64,000 nt of DNA, taken from an uncultured Dehalococcoidia bacterium (lineage in GTDB: Bacteria; Chloroflexota; Dehalococcoidia; Lucifugimonadales; UBA3495). The notes beneath the pieces were generated by a model. It saw only the letters and a program-made list of their open reading frames with translations, was not told the DNA's origin and made no database searches. Location of the stretch: NCBI GenBank assembly GCA_958296385.1, contig OY282494.1, forward strand, positions 1,099,416-1,163,415. Direction: 5' to 3'. Positions 23,218 through 57,045 of the stretch are shown here, piece after piece (within the stretch, counting starts at the first letter, position 1; each line of letters starts with the position of its first letter). Position numbers and translations under genes: made by a program.

Positions 23218-24162
23218 ATGAACCCCATGAGCCCTGAAATCCTAATCGCCGCAGTAGCTGCCCTGACTTTCGTCCTTACCATCACTGTCCTGCTGGTACG
23301 GGGCAGCTTTATGCTGGGCGGCTCCATCAACAAGTCCAACACCCTCGACCAACAAGTCGGGGACTTGGTCAAGGCCATCAACGAGCAGCGGGCCGAATCA
23401 CAACAAACCACCCAGCAGTTGCGTGATGACATGGCGGCTATGAACAACCGGCTGTCGGCAGACATGGCGGCCATGAACGATAGGCTATCAGCAGACATGG
23501 TCACCATGCACGACAGGCTGTCGGCAGACATGGCGGCCAGGAACGATAAGCTGTCGGCAGACATGGCCGCCAGGAACGATAGGCTGTCGGCAGACATGGC
23601 CACCATGCACGACAGGCTGGCAGACTCCATAGCCGCCCTACGCACCGAAATGCAACAATCCCACCAGCAGCTGCGCACCGAAATCCAGCAATCCAATCAG
23701 CAACTGCGCACTGAAATCCAGGAAGTTCGCACCGAAATCCAACAATCCCACCAGCAGCTACACACCGAAATCCAACAATCCCACCAGCAACTGCGCGCTG
23801 AAATCCAGGAAGTTCGCACCGAAATCCAGCAATCCCACCAGCAGCTACACACCGAAATCCAGCAATCCAATCAGCAACTGCGCACTGAAATCCAGGACGT
23901 TCGCGCTGAAATCCAACAATCCAATCAGCAGCTGCGCGCCGAAATCCAGGACGTTCGCGCTGAAATCCAACAATCCAATCAGCAACTACGCGCCGAAATC
24001 CAGGACGTTCGGGCCGAAATCAGGGACATACGCGCCGATGTCCAGCACCTACGCGCCGATGTCCAGCAAACCAATCAAGTCCTGGTCGGCCTGGCCAACC
24101 ACACCCACGACGACGACGGCCGCACCCTGTTCACCGTCCCCTCTCAAACAGTTGCCGCATAG
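23218..24162 (+). CDS. Membrane-anchored coiled-coil protein with hendecad and heptad repeats
   Basis: The 314-residue protein has one membrane segment at residues about 8-30, then an almost uninterrupted coiled coil. Residues about 79-140 contain six 11-residue units of the form LSADMAARNDR. Residues about 150-275 alternate an 11-residue unit (EIQQSHQQLRT) with a 7-residue unit (EIQDVRA), giving an 18-residue super-repeat. The tail NHTHDDDGRTLFTVP is not repetitive. The repeats are nearly identical in DNA too, so their number can change by slippage or recombination. It abuts the smaller coiled-coil gene with no gap. No family is recognised; a cell-envelope or scaffold role is a guess. Confidence 0.75.
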   Translation: MNPMSPEILIAAVAALTFVLTITVLLVRGSFMLGGSINKSNTLDQQVGDLVKAINEQRAESQQTTQQLRDDMAAMNNRLSADMAAMNDRLSADMVTMHDRLSADMAARNDKLSADMAARNDRLSADMATMHDRLADSIAALRTEMQQSHQQLRTEIQQSNQQLRTEIQEVRTEIQQSHQQLHTEIQQSHQQLRAEIQEVRTEIQQSHQQLHTEIQQSNQQLRTEIQDVRAEIQQSNQQLRAEIQDVRAEIQQSNQQLRAEIQDVRAEIRDIRADVQHLRADVQQTNQVLVGLANHTHDDDGRTLFTVPSQTVAA

Positions 24163-44445: not shown

Positions 44446-44733
44446 CGACCCGGATAGCCCATCGACCCGGATAGCCCGACGACCCGGATAGCCCGACGAC
44501 CCGGATAGCCCGACGACCCGGATAGCCCGACGACCCGGATAGCCCGACGACCCGGATAGCCCGACGACCCAGACAGCCCGACGACCCGCACAGTCCAACG
44601 ACCCGGATAGCCCATCGACCCGGATAGCCCATCGACCCGGATAGCCCAACGACCCGGACACCCTACCGACTCGGACAGCCCGTCAACCCGATAGCCCGAC
44701 GACCCACACATCCCAACGACCCGCACACCCCAA
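44446..44733. repeat. 17-bp tandem repeat array (17 copies)
   Basis: Seventeen head-to-tail copies of CGACCCGGATAGCCCGA or close variants span 44446-44733. Copies 3-7 are identical and the edges are degenerate; one copy (44684) lacks a base. There are no spacers, so it is a minisatellite, not a CRISPR. It ends just before the ribosome-binding AAGGAG of the next gene. The unit is not a multiple of three, so the open frames across it are not coding. Confidence 0.93.
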
Positions 44734-44749: not shown

Positions 44750-45061
44750 ATGTTCATCGCAACCAACCGCATCAAAGTCAAAACCGGCTACGGCGATACC
44801 CTGGCCAGTATGTTCAAAGCCCGCGGCGCCGTCCAGGACCACCCCGGCTTCATCAGCTTCGAACTCTGGCAGATGAACAACACCCCCGACCACGAGGATT
44901 TCCTCGTAGTAACCCACTGGGAGACCGAGGAACACCACCGCACCTGGACCCGCAGCGACGCCTTCCGCGCCGCCCACGCCGGCGGCCCCCCCGACTTCCT
45001 CATCGGCCCCGGCGAATTCCAAACCTACCAGGTAATCCACCACCTGACACCATCCGACTAA
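44750..45061 (+). CDS. Antibiotic biosynthesis monooxygenase-fold protein, IsdG/HmoB-like heme-degrading type
   Basis: The 103-residue protein has the dimeric ferredoxin-like ABM fold. The residues that mark heme-degrading IsdG-type monooxygenases are present at the right spacing: Asn6 (ATNRIKV), Trp66 (HHRTWTRS) and His76 (FRAAHAGG). The block HPGFISFELWQMNN is also typical. Such enzymes open the heme ring and release iron. AAGGAG lies nine bases before the ATG, just after the 17-bp array. It may balance the heme synthesis encoded earlier in the window, though it is 28 kb away. Confidence 0.82.
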   Translation: MFIATNRIKVKTGYGDTLASMFKARGAVQDHPGFISFELWQMNNTPDHEDFLVVTHWETEEHHRTWTRSDAFRAAHAGGPPDFLIGPGEFQTYQVIHHLTPSD

Positions 45062-45095: not shown

Positions 45096-45767
45096 ATGAC
45101 CACGCCAACCACAACCCCAACCGCCGCACCGCCAAACGCACCCATCAGCATCGCCCCCGACAACGCCCTAATCATCAACCCCCGCGATTTGGGCATCACC
45201 GCCACCGGCCCCGAGCTGGAAAAGCTCTTTATCAAGTTCACCCAGCAAAACAGCCAAAACCCGTGGCAATTCGAACTCAGTCCGGAGGGCGAAATCATCA
45301 CCATGCCACCCGTCTATTACCCCGGCAGTTTTCACGAAAAAGACACGGCCTTTGCCCTGGAGTCCTGGACGCGCGAGTTCGGCGGCGAATCCACCGGCTC
45401 CGGCGCCGCCTACCGGATGCCCACCACCGGCGGCATCCTCGCCCCCGACGCCGCCTGGATTGCCCCAAACCGCTGGCCGGAGCATCTCCGAATACCCGGC
45501 GACCCCATCCCCCTCTGCCCCGATTTCATCATCGAAATCCGCTCCACCACCGACAACCTCGCCCCCCTCCAAGCCAAAATGCGCCTGTACATCCAAAACG
45601 GCGCCCAACTAGCCTGGCTAATCGACCCCCGCAACCGCCGCGTCCACATCTACCGCCCCGGCCAGCCTGAACCCGAAACCCTCGAAAACCCAACCACCCT
45701 ATCCGGCGAAACCACCCTCCCCGGCTTCACCTTTGACGTAGCCCGGTGGATTTTCGACCGTACCTAA
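45096..45767 (+). CDS. Uma2 family PD-(D/E)XK endonuclease, array copy 1
   Basis: This is the first of five tandem Uma2 (DUF820) genes. Residues 1-75 carry the common front (IAPDNALIINPRDLGITATG and FELSPEGEIITMPPVYYPG). The centre is specific to this copy (EKDTAFALESWTREFGGESTGSG and RWPEHLRIPGDPIPLC). The nuclease core is LCPDFIIEIRSTTDNLAPLQ then AKMRLYIQNGAQLAWLIDP, giving the D...E...K set. It has 223 residues and AAGGAG nine bases before the ATG. Uma2 proteins are predicted restriction-like nucleases; their role is unsettled. It lacks the leader shared by copies 2, 3 and 5. Confidence 0.88.
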   Translation: MTTPTTTPTAAPPNAPISIAPDNALIINPRDLGITATGPELEKLFIKFTQQNSQNPWQFELSPEGEIITMPPVYYPGSFHEKDTAFALESWTREFGGESTGSGAAYRMPTTGGILAPDAAWIAPNRWPEHLRIPGDPIPLCPDFIIEIRSTTDNLAPLQAKMRLYIQNGAQLAWLIDPRNRRVHIYRPGQPEPETLENPTTLSGETTLPGFTFDVARWIFDRT

Positions 45768-45819
45768 TCAGCCCACGCCGGCTAAACCCCGACGCTTACC
45801 CACCACAGGACTTGGCCTC

Positions 45820-46488
45820 ATGACCACGCCAACCAAAACCCCAACCGCCGCACCGCCAAACGCACCCACCAGCATCGCCCCCGACAACGCCCTAATCATC
45901 AACCCCCGCGATTTGGGCATAACCGCCACCGGCCCGGAGTTGGAAAAACTGTTCATCGAGTTCTGCAAAAAGAACAGCCAAAACCCCTGGCAATTCGAAC
46001 TGAGCCCGGAGGGCAAAATCATCACCATGCCACCCGTAAATTACCCCGGCGATGCCCACGAAGGCACCCTATTCCTGCATCTTGGCAATTGGGCAACCGA
46101 CCACGGCGGCCACGCCCGCAACTCCAACGCCGCTTTCCGTATGCCCCACGGCGGCCTGCTCGTCCCCGACGCATCCTGGACATCCGACGCGCGCTGGGCC
46201 GAACACCCCCACCCCATCGGCGAACCAACCCCCCTCTGCCCCGACTTCGTAGCCGAAATCCGCTCCACCACCGACAACCTCTCCCCCCTCCAGGCCAAAA
46301 TGCGCCTCTACATCCAAAACGGCGCCCTGCTCGCCTGGCTAATCGACCCCCGCAACCGCCGCGTCCAAATCTACCGCCCCGGCCAGCCCGAACCCGAAAC
46401 CCTGGACAACCCAACCACCCTATCCGGCGAAACCACCCTCCCCGGCTTCACCTTTGACGTAGCCCGGTGGATTTTCGACCGCACCTAA
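45820..46488 (+). CDS. Uma2 family PD-(D/E)XK endonuclease, array copy 2 (type B centre)
   Basis: The front and end of this 222-residue copy are nearly identical to copy 1. The middle differs: LEKLFIEFCKKNSQNPW, then HLGNWATDHGGHARNSNAAF, MPHGGLLVPDASWTSDARW. The catalytic set PDFVAEIRSTT and AKMRLYIQNG is intact. A 52-base leader with the small hairpin CGCCGG/CCGGCG-type inverted repeat and AGGA ahead of the ATG is shared almost exactly with copy 5. Copies 2 and 5 form one subtype, suggesting segmental duplication of gene plus leader. Confidence 0.88.
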   Translation: MTTPTKTPTAAPPNAPTSIAPDNALIINPRDLGITATGPELEKLFIEFCKKNSQNPWQFELSPEGKIITMPPVNYPGDAHEGTLFLHLGNWATDHGGHARNSNAAFRMPHGGLLVPDASWTSDARWAEHPHPIGEPTPLCPDFVAEIRSTTDNLSPLQAKMRLYIQNGALLAWLIDPRNRRVQIYRPGQPEPETLDNPTTLSGETTLPGFTFDVARWIFDRT

Positions 46489-46580
46489 TCAACCCCGGCG
46501 AATCCGACGCCTACCCAGTCCTCCATCGCCTCCCCCACGCCGGCTAAACCCCGGCGCTTGCCCACCACAGGACTTGGCCT

Positions 46581-47252
46581 ATGACCACGCCAACCAAAAC
46601 CCCGACCGCCGCACCGCCAAACGCACCCACCAGCATCGCCCCCGACAACGCCCTAATCATCAACCCCCGCGATTTGGGCATAACGGCCACCGGCCCCGAG
46701 CTGGAAAAGCTCTTTATCAAGTTCACCCAGCAAAACAGCCAAAACCCGTGGCAATTCGAACTGACCCCGGAGGGCGAAATCATCATCATGCCACCCGTCT
46801 ATCACCCCGGCGGATTTCACGAAAACGCCATCAGCAGCTTTCTGTTCCTTTGGACAATGGACTACGGCGGCGAGTCCACCGGCTCCAACGCCGCCTACCG
46901 TATGCCCACCACCGGCGGCATCCTCGTTCCCGACGCCGCCTGGACATCCCCCGAACGTTGGTCAACCCTATCGCCCATCTCCGGCGAACCCATCCAACTA
47001 TGCCCCGACTTCGTAGTCGAAATCCGCTCCACCACCGACAACCTCGCCCCCCTCCAGGCCAAGATGCGCCTGTACATCCAAAACGGCGCCCAACTAGCCT
47101 GGCTCATCGACCCCCGCAACCGCCGCGTCCAAATCTACCGCCCCGGCCAAACCGAACCCGAAACCCTCGAAAACCCAACCACCCTATCCGGCGAAACCAC
47201 CCTCCCCGGCTTTGAGTTTGACGTAGCCCGGTGGATTTTTGACCGTACTTAA
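46581..47252 (+). CDS. Uma2 family PD-(D/E)XK endonuclease, array copy 3 (type A centre)
   Basis: This 223-residue copy has the common front, a type A centre (FHENAISSFLFLWTMDYGG, ESTGSNAAYRMPTTGG, RWSTLSPISGEP) and the common end with PDFVVEIRSTTDN and AKMRLYIQNGAQLAWLIDP. It is most like copy 4. The upstream 92 bases include the same CACGCCGGCTAAACCCCGGC leader as copies 2 and 5. All catalytic residues are present. Confidence 0.88.
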   Translation: MTTPTKTPTAAPPNAPTSIAPDNALIINPRDLGITATGPELEKLFIKFTQQNSQNPWQFELTPEGEIIIMPPVYHPGGFHENAISSFLFLWTMDYGGESTGSNAAYRMPTTGGILVPDAAWTSPERWSTLSPISGEPIQLCPDFVVEIRSTTDNLAPLQAKMRLYIQNGAQLAWLIDPRNRRVQIYRPGQTEPETLENPTTLSGETTLPGFEFDVARWIFDRT

Positions 47253-47283
47253 CCGGCAGTTACACATCACAAGGAGTTGGCTT

Positions 47284-47943
47284 ATGACTACGCCAACCAC
47301 AATCCCACCGGACACATCTACCAGCATCGCCCCCGACAACGCCCTAATCATCAACCCCCGCGATTTGGGCATCACCGCCACCGGCTCCGAGCTGGAAAAG
47401 CTCTTTATCAAGTTCACGCAGCAAAACAGCCAAAACCCGTGGCAATTCGAACGCAGTCCGGAGGGCGAAATCATCACCATGCCACCCGTCTATCACCCCG
47501 GCGGCTTTCACGAAAACGCCATCAGCAGCTTTCTATTCCTTTGGACAATAGACTACGGCGGCGAGTCCACCGGCTCCAATGCCGCCTACCGTATGCCCAC
47601 CACCGGCGGCATCCTCGTCCCCGACGCCGCCTGGACATCCCCCGAACGTTGGTCAACCCTATCCCCCACATCCGGCGAACCCATCGGATTATGCCCCGAT
47701 TTCGTAGCCGAAATCCGCTCCGGCTCCGACAACCTCGCCCCCCTCCAGGCCAAGATGCGCCTCTACATCCAAAACGGCGCCCTGCTCGGCTGGATCATCG
47801 ACCCCCGCAACCGCCGCGTCCACATTTACCGCCCCGGCCAAACCGAACCCGAAACCCTCGACAACCCAACCACACTATCCGGCGAAACCACCCTCCCCGG
47901 CTTCACCTTCGATGTAGCGCAGTGGATTTTCGACCGTACCTAA
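47284..47943 (+). CDS. Uma2 family PD-(D/E)XK endonuclease, array copy 4 (type A centre)
   Basis: This 219-residue copy is closest to copy 3 through its centre (FHENAISSFLFLWTIDYGG, RWSTLSPTSGEP). The front is shortened (TTIPPDTSTSIAPDN instead of the longer proline/alanine stretch). Its core is PDFVAEIRSGSDNLAPLQ, the GSD variant shared with copy 5, and the end reads VAQWIFDRT. The mixture of copy 3 centre and copy 5 core points to recombination between copies. AAGGAG precedes the ATG at 47284; its leader matches copy 1 rather than copies 2, 3 and 5. Confidence 0.88.
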   Translation: MTTPTTIPPDTSTSIAPDNALIINPRDLGITATGSELEKLFIKFTQQNSQNPWQFERSPEGEIITMPPVYHPGGFHENAISSFLFLWTIDYGGESTGSNAAYRMPTTGGILVPDAAWTSPERWSTLSPTSGEPIGLCPDFVAEIRSGSDNLAPLQAKMRLYIQNGALLGWIIDPRNRRVHIYRPGQTEPETLDNPTTLSGETTLPGFTFDVAQWIFDRT

Positions 47944-47995
47944 TCAGCCCACGCCGGCTAAACCCCGGCGCTTGCCCACCACAGGACTTGGCCTC

Positions 47996-48664
47996 ATGAC
48001 CACGCCAACCAAAACCCCAACCGCCGCCCCCCCAAACGCACCCACCAGCATCGCCCCCGACAACGCCCTAATCATCAACCCCCGCGATTTGGGCATCACC
48101 GCCACCGGCCCGGAGCTGGAAAAACTGTTCATCGAGTTCTGCAAAAAGAACAGCCAAAACCCCTGGCAATTCGAACTGAGCCCGGAGGGCAAAATCATCA
48201 CCATGCCGCCCGTAAATTACCCCAGCTCTGCCCACGAAAGCGCCTTATTCCTGCATCTCGGCAACTGGGCAACCGACCACGGCGGCCACGCCCTCAACTC
48301 CAACGCCGCCTTCCGTATGCCCCACGGCGGCCTGCTCGTCCCCGACGCATCCTGGACATCCGACGCGCGCTGGGCCGAACACCCCCACCCCATCGGCGAA
48401 CCCATCCCGCTATGCCCCGACTTCGTAGCCGAGATACGCTCCGGCTCCGACAACCTAACCCCTCTCCAAGCCAAGATGCGCCTCTACATCCAAAACGGCG
48501 CCCTGCTCGGCTGGCTCATCGACCCCCGCAACCGCCGCGTCCACATTTACCGCCCCGGCCAAACCGAACCTGAAACCCTGGACAACCCAACCACCCTATC
48601 CGGCGCAACCATCCTCCCCGGCTTTACCTTTGACGTAGCCCGCTACATTTTTGACCACACCTAG
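47996..48664 (+). CDS. Uma2 family PD-(D/E)XK endonuclease, array copy 5 (type B centre)
   Basis: This last 222-residue copy has a type B centre almost identical to copy 2 (HLGNWATDHGGHALNSNAAF) but the GSD core of copy 4 (PDFVAEIRSGSDNLTPLQ) and its own ending (SGATILPGFTFDVARYIFDHT). The catalytic D...E...K set is intact. The leader duplicates that of copy 2. It converges on the degenerate HNH gene 35 bases away. Confidence 0.88.
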   Translation: MTTPTKTPTAAPPNAPTSIAPDNALIINPRDLGITATGPELEKLFIEFCKKNSQNPWQFELSPEGKIITMPPVNYPSSAHESALFLHLGNWATDHGGHALNSNAAFRMPHGGLLVPDASWTSDARWAEHPHPIGEPIPLCPDFVAEIRSGSDNLTPLQAKMRLYIQNGALLGWLIDPRNRRVHIYRPGQTEPETLDNPTTLSGATILPGFTFDVARYIFDHT

Positions 48665-48698: not shown

Positions 48699-49415
48699 TC
48701 AGTCAGCCGCCGACGCATCTTCGCTGTACGCCAGTTCCCCCACCACGTCGTACTCGTCGTCCGGTTCGTCAAACTCCTCCACGTACCCCGCCGAGTTCAG
48801 CGCGCGCCAAAACGCCCCCCGTCCGTCCGGCAGCCGCTTGCCCATCGCCTGGCCAATCAAGTCCAGCATCGCCGCGCCCCGTTCCACAAAGCACTCCGCA
48901 AACTTGTCCGCCACCAGCAATTCCGGATTCAGCCAGTGCGCCCGCAGCGCCCGGTCCAGCGTATCCGGACTGATGTCGTTTTGCAGCCTCGGCAAGTACC
49001 GCGATGGCGCATTGCCCCCAATCCTGCGGTTCGTCCCCGCGTCAATCGGCGTCTTGTTGATGATGGAATTGTACAGACGCGACGGCACCGGCGGGCGCGC
49101 GCGGTTGCACCAGGCCACCGGGAATATATGATGAATGTCAATGTGGCTGTCATCCCAGACCGCAAAAGATAGCGGATTAGCCGTGCGCCAGTCGGCGGCG
49201 CCATCTTTCATCTGCAACGCATACAGCCCCTTGTAGGCCGCGCTGTTGCGCGTGCGCAGCGACAGCAATCGTTCCGGCGCAAAATTGGCCTCCGTCACCA
49301 GCGTCGGCTCCGCCCCGCCACGAATCCATACCGGAACCTGTGCCAAGTCCAAGCCATACTGCGTTTCAGCAGTTAATTGCCGGCATCCGATTCTGCGGCC
49401 CGCCCGACGCCGGCC
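48699..49415 (-). pseudogene. Amino-truncated GmrSD/DUF262-type HNH nuclease remnant
   Basis: The frame encodes only the carboxy part of a DUF262-DUF1524 (GmrSD-like, type IV restriction) protein. It includes LRTRNSAAYKGLYALQMKDG, the HNH motif SHIDIHHIFPVAWC, INKTPIDAGTNRRIGGNAPS and a helical tail. The frame opens directly after a stop at 49418-49416 and has no ATG upstream of the conserved region; TTG 49352 is the only nearby start. The DUF262 NTPase-like half, usually about 400 residues, is absent: only about 50 bases separate it from the next gene. It is most likely a deletion remnant, though a standalone HNH protein cannot be excluded. Confidence 0.75.
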
Positions 49416-49464: not shown

Positions 49465-50292
49465 TCACCGATGCTTGACCACTGCATCGCTGGCAAGCCG
49501 CTCGTAGCCCAGCATAAAAAGCGCCGACTGCACCGCGTCCGCGCGGCGGCTTTCGGGCAAGTTGCTAAAATCGCCGGGGTCAGCGGTCAACCCCTGCATC
49601 AACCAGGCAAACTGCAAATTAGCCTTCGCATACCTTGCCTTTTGACCATATCGAATCGCCGGCATTGTACATCTGCCACCAACGTTCCCACGACCTTTCG
49701 GCATTCCCAGGTCGAGTAACGGTGGCATTCGATGCAAGCCAGCATCTTGGCGGTACAGCCGAACTAAACAAGCCAGAGCGCACGCAACTCTGCTGTCGTA
49801 GATGGGCAAGCCCGGTATCAGCGCCGAGTAAATCTTGCTGTATCCCGACCCCATATACTTAAACTGCCGCAAGTCCTCCGTGTCAGCGCAGGCCGGGTCA
49901 AGCCGTACTTTAATGTCGCAGATTTGAGCGTGCAACTGCGATGGCGTCATCCGCCCCCAATCTTTCAGACACAGGGTGATGTTGCCCCATTTTAGAATGG
50001 CGCGCGCGTTGCGAATAAAGCACGCCTGGTCGTCAATCGTAGCAATATCTCCGATGCTGTTGAAGGTTTCACGAAAACCGTCGAACTCTTGCATCGTGCC
50101 TGCAAAGGTATCGCCATTAACCGAATTAGGCCACCGATAACGCTGGAATGCCTCGTACAACGTACCGCACTGAAATCGCGGCCCTTTCCCTTTCCAGCTA
50201 TGTTCCAACCGCCATTCGCCGTGTACCAGATGGCCAGCCCAATCCACAAACCCCGCCACGTCGGGTTGAGAGAGATAGTCAGTTCGTCTCAT
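49465..50292 (-). CDS. Protein of unknown function, possible helix-hairpin-helix glycosylase-like fold
   Basis: I do not firmly recognise this 275-residue protein. The segment MGSGYSKIYSALIPGLPIYDSRVACAL has a lysine followed about 16 residues later by an aspartate in YDSRVA. This recalls the helix-hairpin-helix/OGG-like DNA glycosylase fold (lysine near the hairpin, then Asp), but the match is weak. The first half (VDWAGHLVHGEWRLEHSW, YEAFQRYRWP) is unfamiliar. The composition is less GC-rich than the neighbours, which hints at transfer. It lies directly upstream of the GmrSD remnant on the same strand and just past the terminator of the rRNA unit, so a decaying defence locus is plausible. 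Confidence 0.6.
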   Translation of the reverse strand: MRRTDYLSQPDVAGFVDWAGHLVHGEWRLEHSWKGKGPRFQCGTLYEAFQRYRWPNSVNGDTFAGTMQEFDGFRETFNSIGDIATIDDQACFIRNARAILKWGNITLCLKDWGRMTPSQLHAQICDIKVRLDPACADTEDLRQFKYMGSGYSKIYSALIPGLPIYDSRVACALACLVRLYRQDAGLHRMPPLLDLGMPKGRGNVGGRCTMPAIRYGQKARYAKANLQFAWLMQGLTADPGDFSNLPESRRADAVQSALFMLGYERLASDAVVKHR

Positions 50293-55160: not shown

Positions 55161-55634
55161 GCTTGACCAACGACTGCCTGACCAACGACTGCCTGACCAG
55201 CGATTGCTCGACCAGCGACTGCCTGACCAACGCCCGCTTGACCGAGATTGCTTGACGACGACTGATTGACCAGCGACTGCCTGACCAACGCCCGCTTGAC
55301 CGGCGATTGCTTGACCAACGCCCACTTGACCAGCGACTGCTTGACGACGATTGCTTGACCGACGCCCGCTTGACCAGCGACTGCCTGACCAACGCCCGCT
55401 TGACCGGCGACTGCTTGACCAGCGACTGCCTGACCAGCGACTGCCTGACCAGCGACTGCCTGACCAACGACCGCTTGACCAGCGACCGCTTGACCAGCGA
55501 CTGCTTGACGACGATTGCTTGACCAGCGACTGCCTGACCAACGCCCGCTTGACCAACGACTGCCTGACTAACGCCCGCTTGACCAACGACTGCCTGACTA
55601 ACGCCCGCTTGACTAGCAACTGCTTGATTGACTG
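55161..55634. repeat. 15-bp tandem repeat array (about 30 copies)
   Basis: About thirty head-to-tail copies of a 15-base unit of the form CTTGACCAGCGACTG or CCTGACCAACGCCCG fill this stretch, with a few copies shifted by indels. There are no spacers. Because 15 is a multiple of three, long frames run through it on both strands and give pentapeptide-like repeats (LTSDC, or SLVKQ on the other strand); no start site or conserved context supports translation. It separates the enoyl-CoA hydratase from the MOSC gene. Confidence 0.9.
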
Positions 55635-56265: not shown

Positions 56266-57045
56266 ATGCTTGAAAAAATGACCCTGCAAGACGCTGTACG
56301 CAAAGTATTGACGGAGGCTCAGGAGGAACTTCACTACAAGGAAATAGCCAGCATCATAGCCGCCGAGAATTTGGTCGAAAGGCTCGGCGCAACGCCGGAT
56401 AAAAGCGTCGCTGCTACCATATCGCTGATGCGAAGCGCCGGCGAAGAGATTGAAAGACCCAAACGCGCGTACTACAAAATTGCAACTCCTCCCGTCGTAA
56501 CAGACGCGGATGAGGATGCCGAGGTTGAAGACAATGCCAGTGTTCGCATAGCAGCCTACGGGCTGTATTGGGAACGCGACAAAGTTGAATGGGACGTCAG
56601 CGGAAACAAGATAGAACTGCTCGGCCGGCCATACGGCGCGCCAGGTTCCGTAGTAAATTTCGCCGACCAGCAAGGCATCTACCTGCTGCATCAAATGCAA
56701 TCCGTAACCTATGTGGGACGCACTACCGCAGGGAACAACGGCCTGTTCAGTAGGCTGAAAGATCACAGTAAGAATACCCGACGTGTCGGTAGATGGGACC
56801 GTTTTTCGTGGTTCGGCATCCGGCCTGTGCACGAGGATGGCGAGTTGCTGAACGCCCCATCGGCCCTTACCACTGACCTGTTCGTCACCATTTTGGAGGC
56901 AGTGCTGATTGAGACCCACTTGCCACCCTTCAACGACAAGAGCGGCGATATGATGGGCCAGCTATACGACCAAGTCCTCGACCCTGACATCGCCAAGAAC
57001 AAAGCCAACGAGCTGCTACGCGATGCCCTCGGGCATAACCGTTAG
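56266..57045 (+). CDS. HARE-HTH plus GIY-YIG nuclease fusion
   Basis: The 259-residue protein has an amino-terminal HARE-HTH (HB1/ASXL) winged-helix domain (residues about 5-70: LQDAVRKVLTEAQEELHYKE, IASIIAAENLV, TISLMRSAGEEIERPKR). After an acidic linker comes a GIY-YIG nuclease: QGIYLLHQ near residue 134, TYVGRTTAG, LFSRLKDHSKNTRR, FSWFGIRPV and the metal-binding glutamate in TILEAVLIETHLPPFND. HARE-HTH domains occur with restriction and modification proteins, so a DNA-targeting or defence role is likely. AAGGAG lies eight bases before the ATG. Base composition is clearly less GC-rich than the neighbours, a sign of transfer. Confidence 0.82.
   Translation: MLEKMTLQDAVRKVLTEAQEELHYKEIASIIAAENLVERLGATPDKSVAATISLMRSAGEEIERPKRAYYKIATPPVVTDADEDAEVEDNASVRIAAYGLYWERDKVEWDVSGNKIELLGRPYGAPGSVVNFADQQGIYLLHQMQSVTYVGRTTAGNNGLFSRLKDHSKNTRRVGRWDRFSWFGIRPVHEDGELLNAPSALTTDLFVTILEAVLIETHLPPFNDKSGDMMGQLYDQVLDPDIAKNKANELLRDALGHNR

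Follow-up and report, generated by a model that had tools for sequence, protein, structure and literature searches.

The window, by which we mean the whole 64,000-nucleotide stretch analysed here, carries at 45096-48664 five intact open reading frames of the Uma2 family (PF05685, PD-(D/E)XK fold), all on the same strand and separated by spacers of only 31-92 bases (Table 1). The original prediction had read this region as five tandem Uma2 genes, which is borne out by the reading frames and the profile matches: a Pfam scan of copies 1, 3 and 5 returned scores above the Uma2 cut-off of 27 bits, and a genome scan placed all five copies above it. Copies 2-5 share 75-84% protein identity with copy 1. 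Residues D118, E147, R149 and K161 are invariant and E81 is also intact in all five proteins, whose putative active site is the PD-EXR-K variant found in Tt1808 and discussed by Feder and Bujnicki (PMC551604); a sequence-profile search of solved structures returned Tt1808 (1WDJ) at 2.6e-24. The array is one of several, as the genome (a single 3.30 Mb contig) contains 91 Uma2 matches, many of them in arrays. About 50 further proteins of ~250-370 amino acids in the same genome (for example at G000:C1:2979638-2979946) match the Uma2 profile in its core alone (positions ~66-156) and, judged by these matches, are a second expanded nuclease-like family.

Table 1. Features of the Uma2 array and its upstream anchor, in window coordinates
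Feature	Position	Strand	Character and basis
ABM-domain gene directly upstream of the array, syntenic anchor	44750-45061	+	present in 13/14 genomes of the genus, own included
Uma2 copy 1	45096-45767	+	centre type 1, STT core; Pfam Uma2 104.9 bits
Uma2 copy 2	45820-46488	+	centre type B, STT core; genome scan above cut-off
Uma2 copy 3	46581-47252	+	centre type A, STT core; Pfam Uma2 107.2 bits
Hypervariable block 1 (on copy 3), residues 79-95, predicted helix alpha-1	46815-46865	+	per-position divergence over 20 arrays; AF2 helix 79-94, low confidence
Hypervariable block 2 (on copy 3), residues 118-140, loop from PD motif to just before CPDF	46932-47000	+	synonymous divergence
Homogenised catalytic part and C-terminus of copy 3 (C141PDF, E147-I-R, K161)	47001-47249	+	synonymous difference 0.12-0.16 between types; invariant E147, K161
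Uma2 copy 4	47284-47943	+	centre type A, GSD core; first 16 residues its own, unlike the other copies
Uma2 copy 5	47996-48664	+	centre type B, GSD core; start codon ATG at 47996; Pfam Uma2 115.3 bits

The array begins 34 bases past a small ABM-domain gene, upstream of which lie luciferase-like monooxygenase and CoA-transferase-like genes; a 17-base repeat, CGACCCGGATAGCCCGA, recurs sixteen times at 44446-44723, just before the ABM gene. Downstream are two minus-strand genes lacking Pfam, NCBIfam or PADLOC matches, one (48699-49352) with an IHHIFP motif resembling HNH nucleases and no homologue at the sister loci, the other (49465-50292) conserved in three relatives close to their Uma2 locus. 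A homologue of the second gene is split by ~2.7 kb in one relative, suggesting an insertion (L068:5224-8736). Elsewhere in the window we noted ~31 copies of a 15-base repeat (55161-55627), nested 33/87/99-base tandem repeats with periods divisible by three (23428-24068) within a predicted gene (23218-24162), and a HARE-HTH domain protein (56266-57045), one stretch of which reads like a GIY-YIG nuclease.

The five genes are mosaics of one another. Their centre types and the STT and GSD cores are distributed as the original prediction had them, and its proposal that the copies have exchanged sequence, based on the different assortment of leaders, cores and centres, is upheld by both permutation and tree tests. 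The leader AAGGAGTTGG precedes copies 1 and 4, and CAGGACTTGG precedes copies 2, 3 and 5. Groupings shift along the C-terminus as well, where the STT/GSD sites pair copy 4 with 5 and other sites pair copy 1 with either 3 or 2. Neighbouring informative sites agree with each other beyond shuffled expectation (NSS permutation, p=0.0001 for the whole gene and p=0.0011 for the ends only), and the tree of the ends is excluded for the centre, as is the centre tree for the ends. Copy 1 and type A differ mainly in two hypervariable blocks; type B differs also from residue 47 onward and is missing one codon at 110. Two Uma2 copies at another locus (L053) have identical, unchanged centres and flanks that differ at 13/90 synonymous sites, indicating that whole centres were copied between these genes and hence that the block is not closed to conversion.

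A constant catalytic part combined with a variable module, as originally described, was found; the single variable centre was not, as it resolves into two blocks with a homogenised segment between them. Block 1 lies around a conserved Glu, with E81, L88 and W91 conserved inside alpha-1, and block 2 varies together with it in the window array. Counting synonymous differences only at codons with an unchanged amino acid, the types differ by 0.33-0.39 (0.37) in residues 80-96 plus 119-140, matching the 0.38 expected in these genes under random pairing (saturation), compared with 0.12-0.16 for the ends and 0.09-0.14 for the 22-codon segment between the blocks. The two blocks therefore predate the remainder of the gene within this array. 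The same measure gave 9/66 (0.14) and 30/247 (0.12) for same-type copies, and a much flatter profile (0.58, 0.53, 0.47) for single-copy orthologues. An earlier version of the synonymous test using wide blocks detected no excess in the window; the excess appeared with narrow blocks. Positive selection on the blocks was considered, as whole-block counting gave pN near or above pS, and was dropped on the basis of a codon model that estimated omega in the centre at 0.09-0.15 and of a pN/pS in same-type pairs of 0.39 in the helix versus 0.23 elsewhere. Since omega is below 1 for the centre as well as for same-type pairs, the data do not demonstrate diversifying selection.

Block 1 coincides with a predicted helix. 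Both AF2 models, built from 5 and 7 sequences, place a helix at residues 79-94 at low confidence (pLDDT 41 and 47), and the second, likewise at low confidence, continues with the PD-motif strand, the E147 strand and the K161 helix in the order expected of a PD-(D/E)XK fold. Mapping of variable residues onto model surfaces was given up because models from so few sequences were too poor. The helical periodicity of alpha-1 variability is borderline (p=0.05), and the conserved positions E81, L88 and W91, with the others varying, suggest that the variable residues of the helix face outwards.

This arrangement of a constant frame and a variable module reaches beyond the window locus. By eye, other arrays in the same genome and in relatives have near-identical N- and C-terminal parts and a variable stretch that begins at the conserved Glu. 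Over 20 arrays, within-array divergence is highest at residues 79-95 (0.5-0.8) and low at E81, L88, W91, G96 and G97. Among positions with high variability between arrays, divergence within arrays is 0.63 in the helix, 0.41 at residues 96-117, 0.37 at 118-140 and 0.24 elsewhere, with alpha-1 above the rest in 19/20 arrays (Mann-Whitney p=1.5e-7 for 0.63 vs 0.24, an exact value weakened by the incomplete independence of arrays from one genome and one family). Equally variable positions elsewhere thus stay alike within arrays, so that the helix is not merely the sole unconstrained part of the protein. Synonymous change in the other arrays is concentrated beside amino-acid change (0.47 vs 0.12; 17/18 arrays). 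The divergence pattern of alpha-1 is accordingly shown for most other Uma2 arrays of the family. Alpha-1 is variable also among single-copy orthologues and in tandem pairs from other Chloroflexota and a cyanobacterial plasmid, the latter pairs being too divergent for the within-array test. One array (L045:3840-12475) comprises four Uma2 copies that, by reading of the sequences, apparently sit within a nuo-like gene cluster for respiratory complex I, a situation reminiscent of the Synechocystis hox operon with its DUF820 genes (PMC4963859).

Comparison across the genus identifies the five-gene array as a lineage-specific tandem expansion of the Uma2 locus. Downstream of the ABM gene there is one Uma2 copy in six congeners, two in two congeners and none in four, whose contigs extend 0.4 to 4 kb beyond the CoA transferase or ABM gene; the window genome has five. 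Copy number is therefore not fixed between species, ranging from 0-2 at the same locus in 12 congeners to 5 here, and the variable positions are gathered into two blocks rather than scattered, contrary to the fixed array and scattered variation that the original prediction had named as evidence against itself; the variation may still be neutral, which it had named as well. Where a congener has two copies, they sit on either side of a CoA-transferase gene, which is missing at this place in the window. All orthologues with type B marks, downstream copies included, resemble copy 2 more than copy 3, and all upstream orthologues resemble copy 3 more than copy 2; S120 splits the upstream and downstream groups perfectly and F106 does so in all but one. 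These similarities are suggestive of a descent of types A/1 and B from the two paralogues that flank the CoA-transferase gene in relatives. They are suggestive only, since tree tests failed to reject monophyly of the five centres (AU 0.40 for DNA, 0.18 for protein) and, for the ends, a grouping of type B with the downstream copies is clearly rejected (p=0.0003).

We looked for functional partners of the array and found no cognate antitoxin beside it (ABM and luciferase-like genes upstream, proteins lacking a family match downstream), no recognised methyltransferase among the directly flanking genes, and no recognised defence gene in Pfam, NCBIfam and PADLOC searches of the neighbours. PADLOC candidate PDC-S03 was matched weakly (26-31 bits). 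No viral relatives of close similarity were found, and the part of the literature that we searched returned no paper linking Uma2 with phage defense. In a protein encoded on an IMG/VR viral contig (L091:1413-2258), an XRE-like helix-turn-helix appears to be fused to a Uma2-like domain. Uma2 arrays sit in unrelated neighbourhoods beside metabolic genes and no recurrent partner was seen, in agreement with earlier work that viewed Uma2 genes as selfish or as solo toxins (PMC2701414, PMC551604). The function in defence or self/non-self discrimination offered in the original prediction lacks direct support, there being no antitoxin, methyltransferase or known defence partner alongside, no donor cassettes, and no positive selection in the codon tests.

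Our preferred reading builds on what the data show: unequal exchange or gene conversion keeps the N-terminus and the catalytic C-terminus alike across copies, while alpha-1 and the loop that follows the PD strand have survived as old, divergent types in changing combinations with leaders and cores. From this pattern we infer that the divergence was retained because the blocks form a surface that sets specificity: alpha-1, together with the following loop in the window array, may constitute a binding surface whose diversity is kept, and the blocks may determine what each putative nuclease binds, be it a nucleic-acid target or a protein partner, in which case the array would provide several specificities on one catalytic frame. 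Taken as a whole, a lineage-specific expansion with concerted evolution of the nuclease frame and retention of old surface variants, probably setting target or partner specificity, is tentatively favoured on the sequence evidence, a little short of being probable.

The codon evidence offers no proof of selection for diversity, which leaves a passive mosaic close behind. Under that explanation alpha-1 is simply the longest weakly constrained run of the protein, and once it had diverged, non-homology would block conversion and preserve variation tied to no function. An omega well below 1, the only mildly relaxed constraint in same-type pairs and the variability of alpha-1 between single-copy orthologues all accord with it. 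What makes it doubtful is that many positions elsewhere are equally variable between arrays yet alike within them, that two separate old blocks surround a homogenised 22-codon segment in the window array, and that whole centres were copied between the L053 genes. The same variability among single-copy orthologues weighs against a proposal of paralogue insulation, in which alpha-1 would be part of a homo-oligomer interface and its divergence would keep tandem copies from forming mixed oligomers; the coexistence of the same-type pairs 3/4 and 2/5 in one array is likewise difficult to reconcile with it. The conserved E81/L88/W91 and variable remainder do fit a surface helix, with periodicity only borderline (p=0.05), and the variable helix of Rpn, also a PD-(D/E)XK protein, is a dimer interface (PMC10327210), but we regard insulation as improbable.

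Selfish proliferation, with spread through recombinogenic nuclease activity and no host role (Feder and Bujnicki 2005; PMC551604), would be consistent with 91 Uma2 matches in a 3.3 Mb genome, a patchy distribution (19/61 genomes of the phylum) and arrays in unrelated gene neighbourhoods. It is compatible with the other readings and leaves the sparing of one helix from homogenisation unexplained, and we consider it rather unlikely as the explanation of the pattern. Rewriting of the centre by active cassette switching or a diversity-generating retroelement is hardly credible and was rejected: a variable block inside a constant frame is what such a system would produce, but a whole-genome search of this assembly by DNA similarity with all three centre types found no donor or template repeat outside the array, and codon differences involve each of the three positions, without restriction to A.

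Among known systems the array comes closest to Uma2/DUF820/COG4636 (PF05685; 1WDJ, Tt1808). The window genes share the sequence family, a predicted PD-(D/E)XK fold and the EXR...K active-site variant with that group, along with massive paralogy and tandem copies (PMC551604, PMC2701414), and expansion and tandem cassettes of Uma2 have been published (PMC551604, PMC2701414, PMC1274311). Homogenised ends flanking a hypervariable alpha-1, with or without the loop, were not described in the part of the Uma2 literature searched. Families undergoing ectopic gene conversion, such as the malaria merozoite antigens, reportedly keep divergent types while paralogues exchange sequence, as seen here, although those proteins are unrelated to Uma2 and are said to be under host immune selection. 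The Rpn phage-defence toxin-antitoxins resemble the array in belonging to the PD-(D/E)XK superfamily, in their expanded paralogues and in combining a constant nuclease with a hypervariable helical part (PMC10327210). In Rpn, however, the variation resides in an antitoxin domain at the C-terminus that is translated separately, whereas in the window Uma2 proteins it resides in a helix within the nuclease fold; no Rpn-type variable C-terminal domain was found in the array, where the C-terminus is the most constant part. Uma2 and Rpn expansions likewise occur in Thermosynechococcus, with tandem arrays reported for Rpn and no module analysis in the parts of that account consulted (PMC9403480).

Uma2 is strongly expanded in several bacterial groups and its function has been open since at least 2005. 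A broader interpretation, which goes well beyond this locus and strikes us as unlikely, is that Uma2 arrays would be nuclease repertoires maintained by recombination, with alpha-1, joined in some by the post-PD loop, as a general specificity determinant that stays diverse on a homogenised catalytic frame and whose several recognition variants would act against invading DNA or its proteins. For the family itself, the escape of alpha-1 from homogenisation in 19 of 20 arrays points to this helix as the probable seat of specificity.
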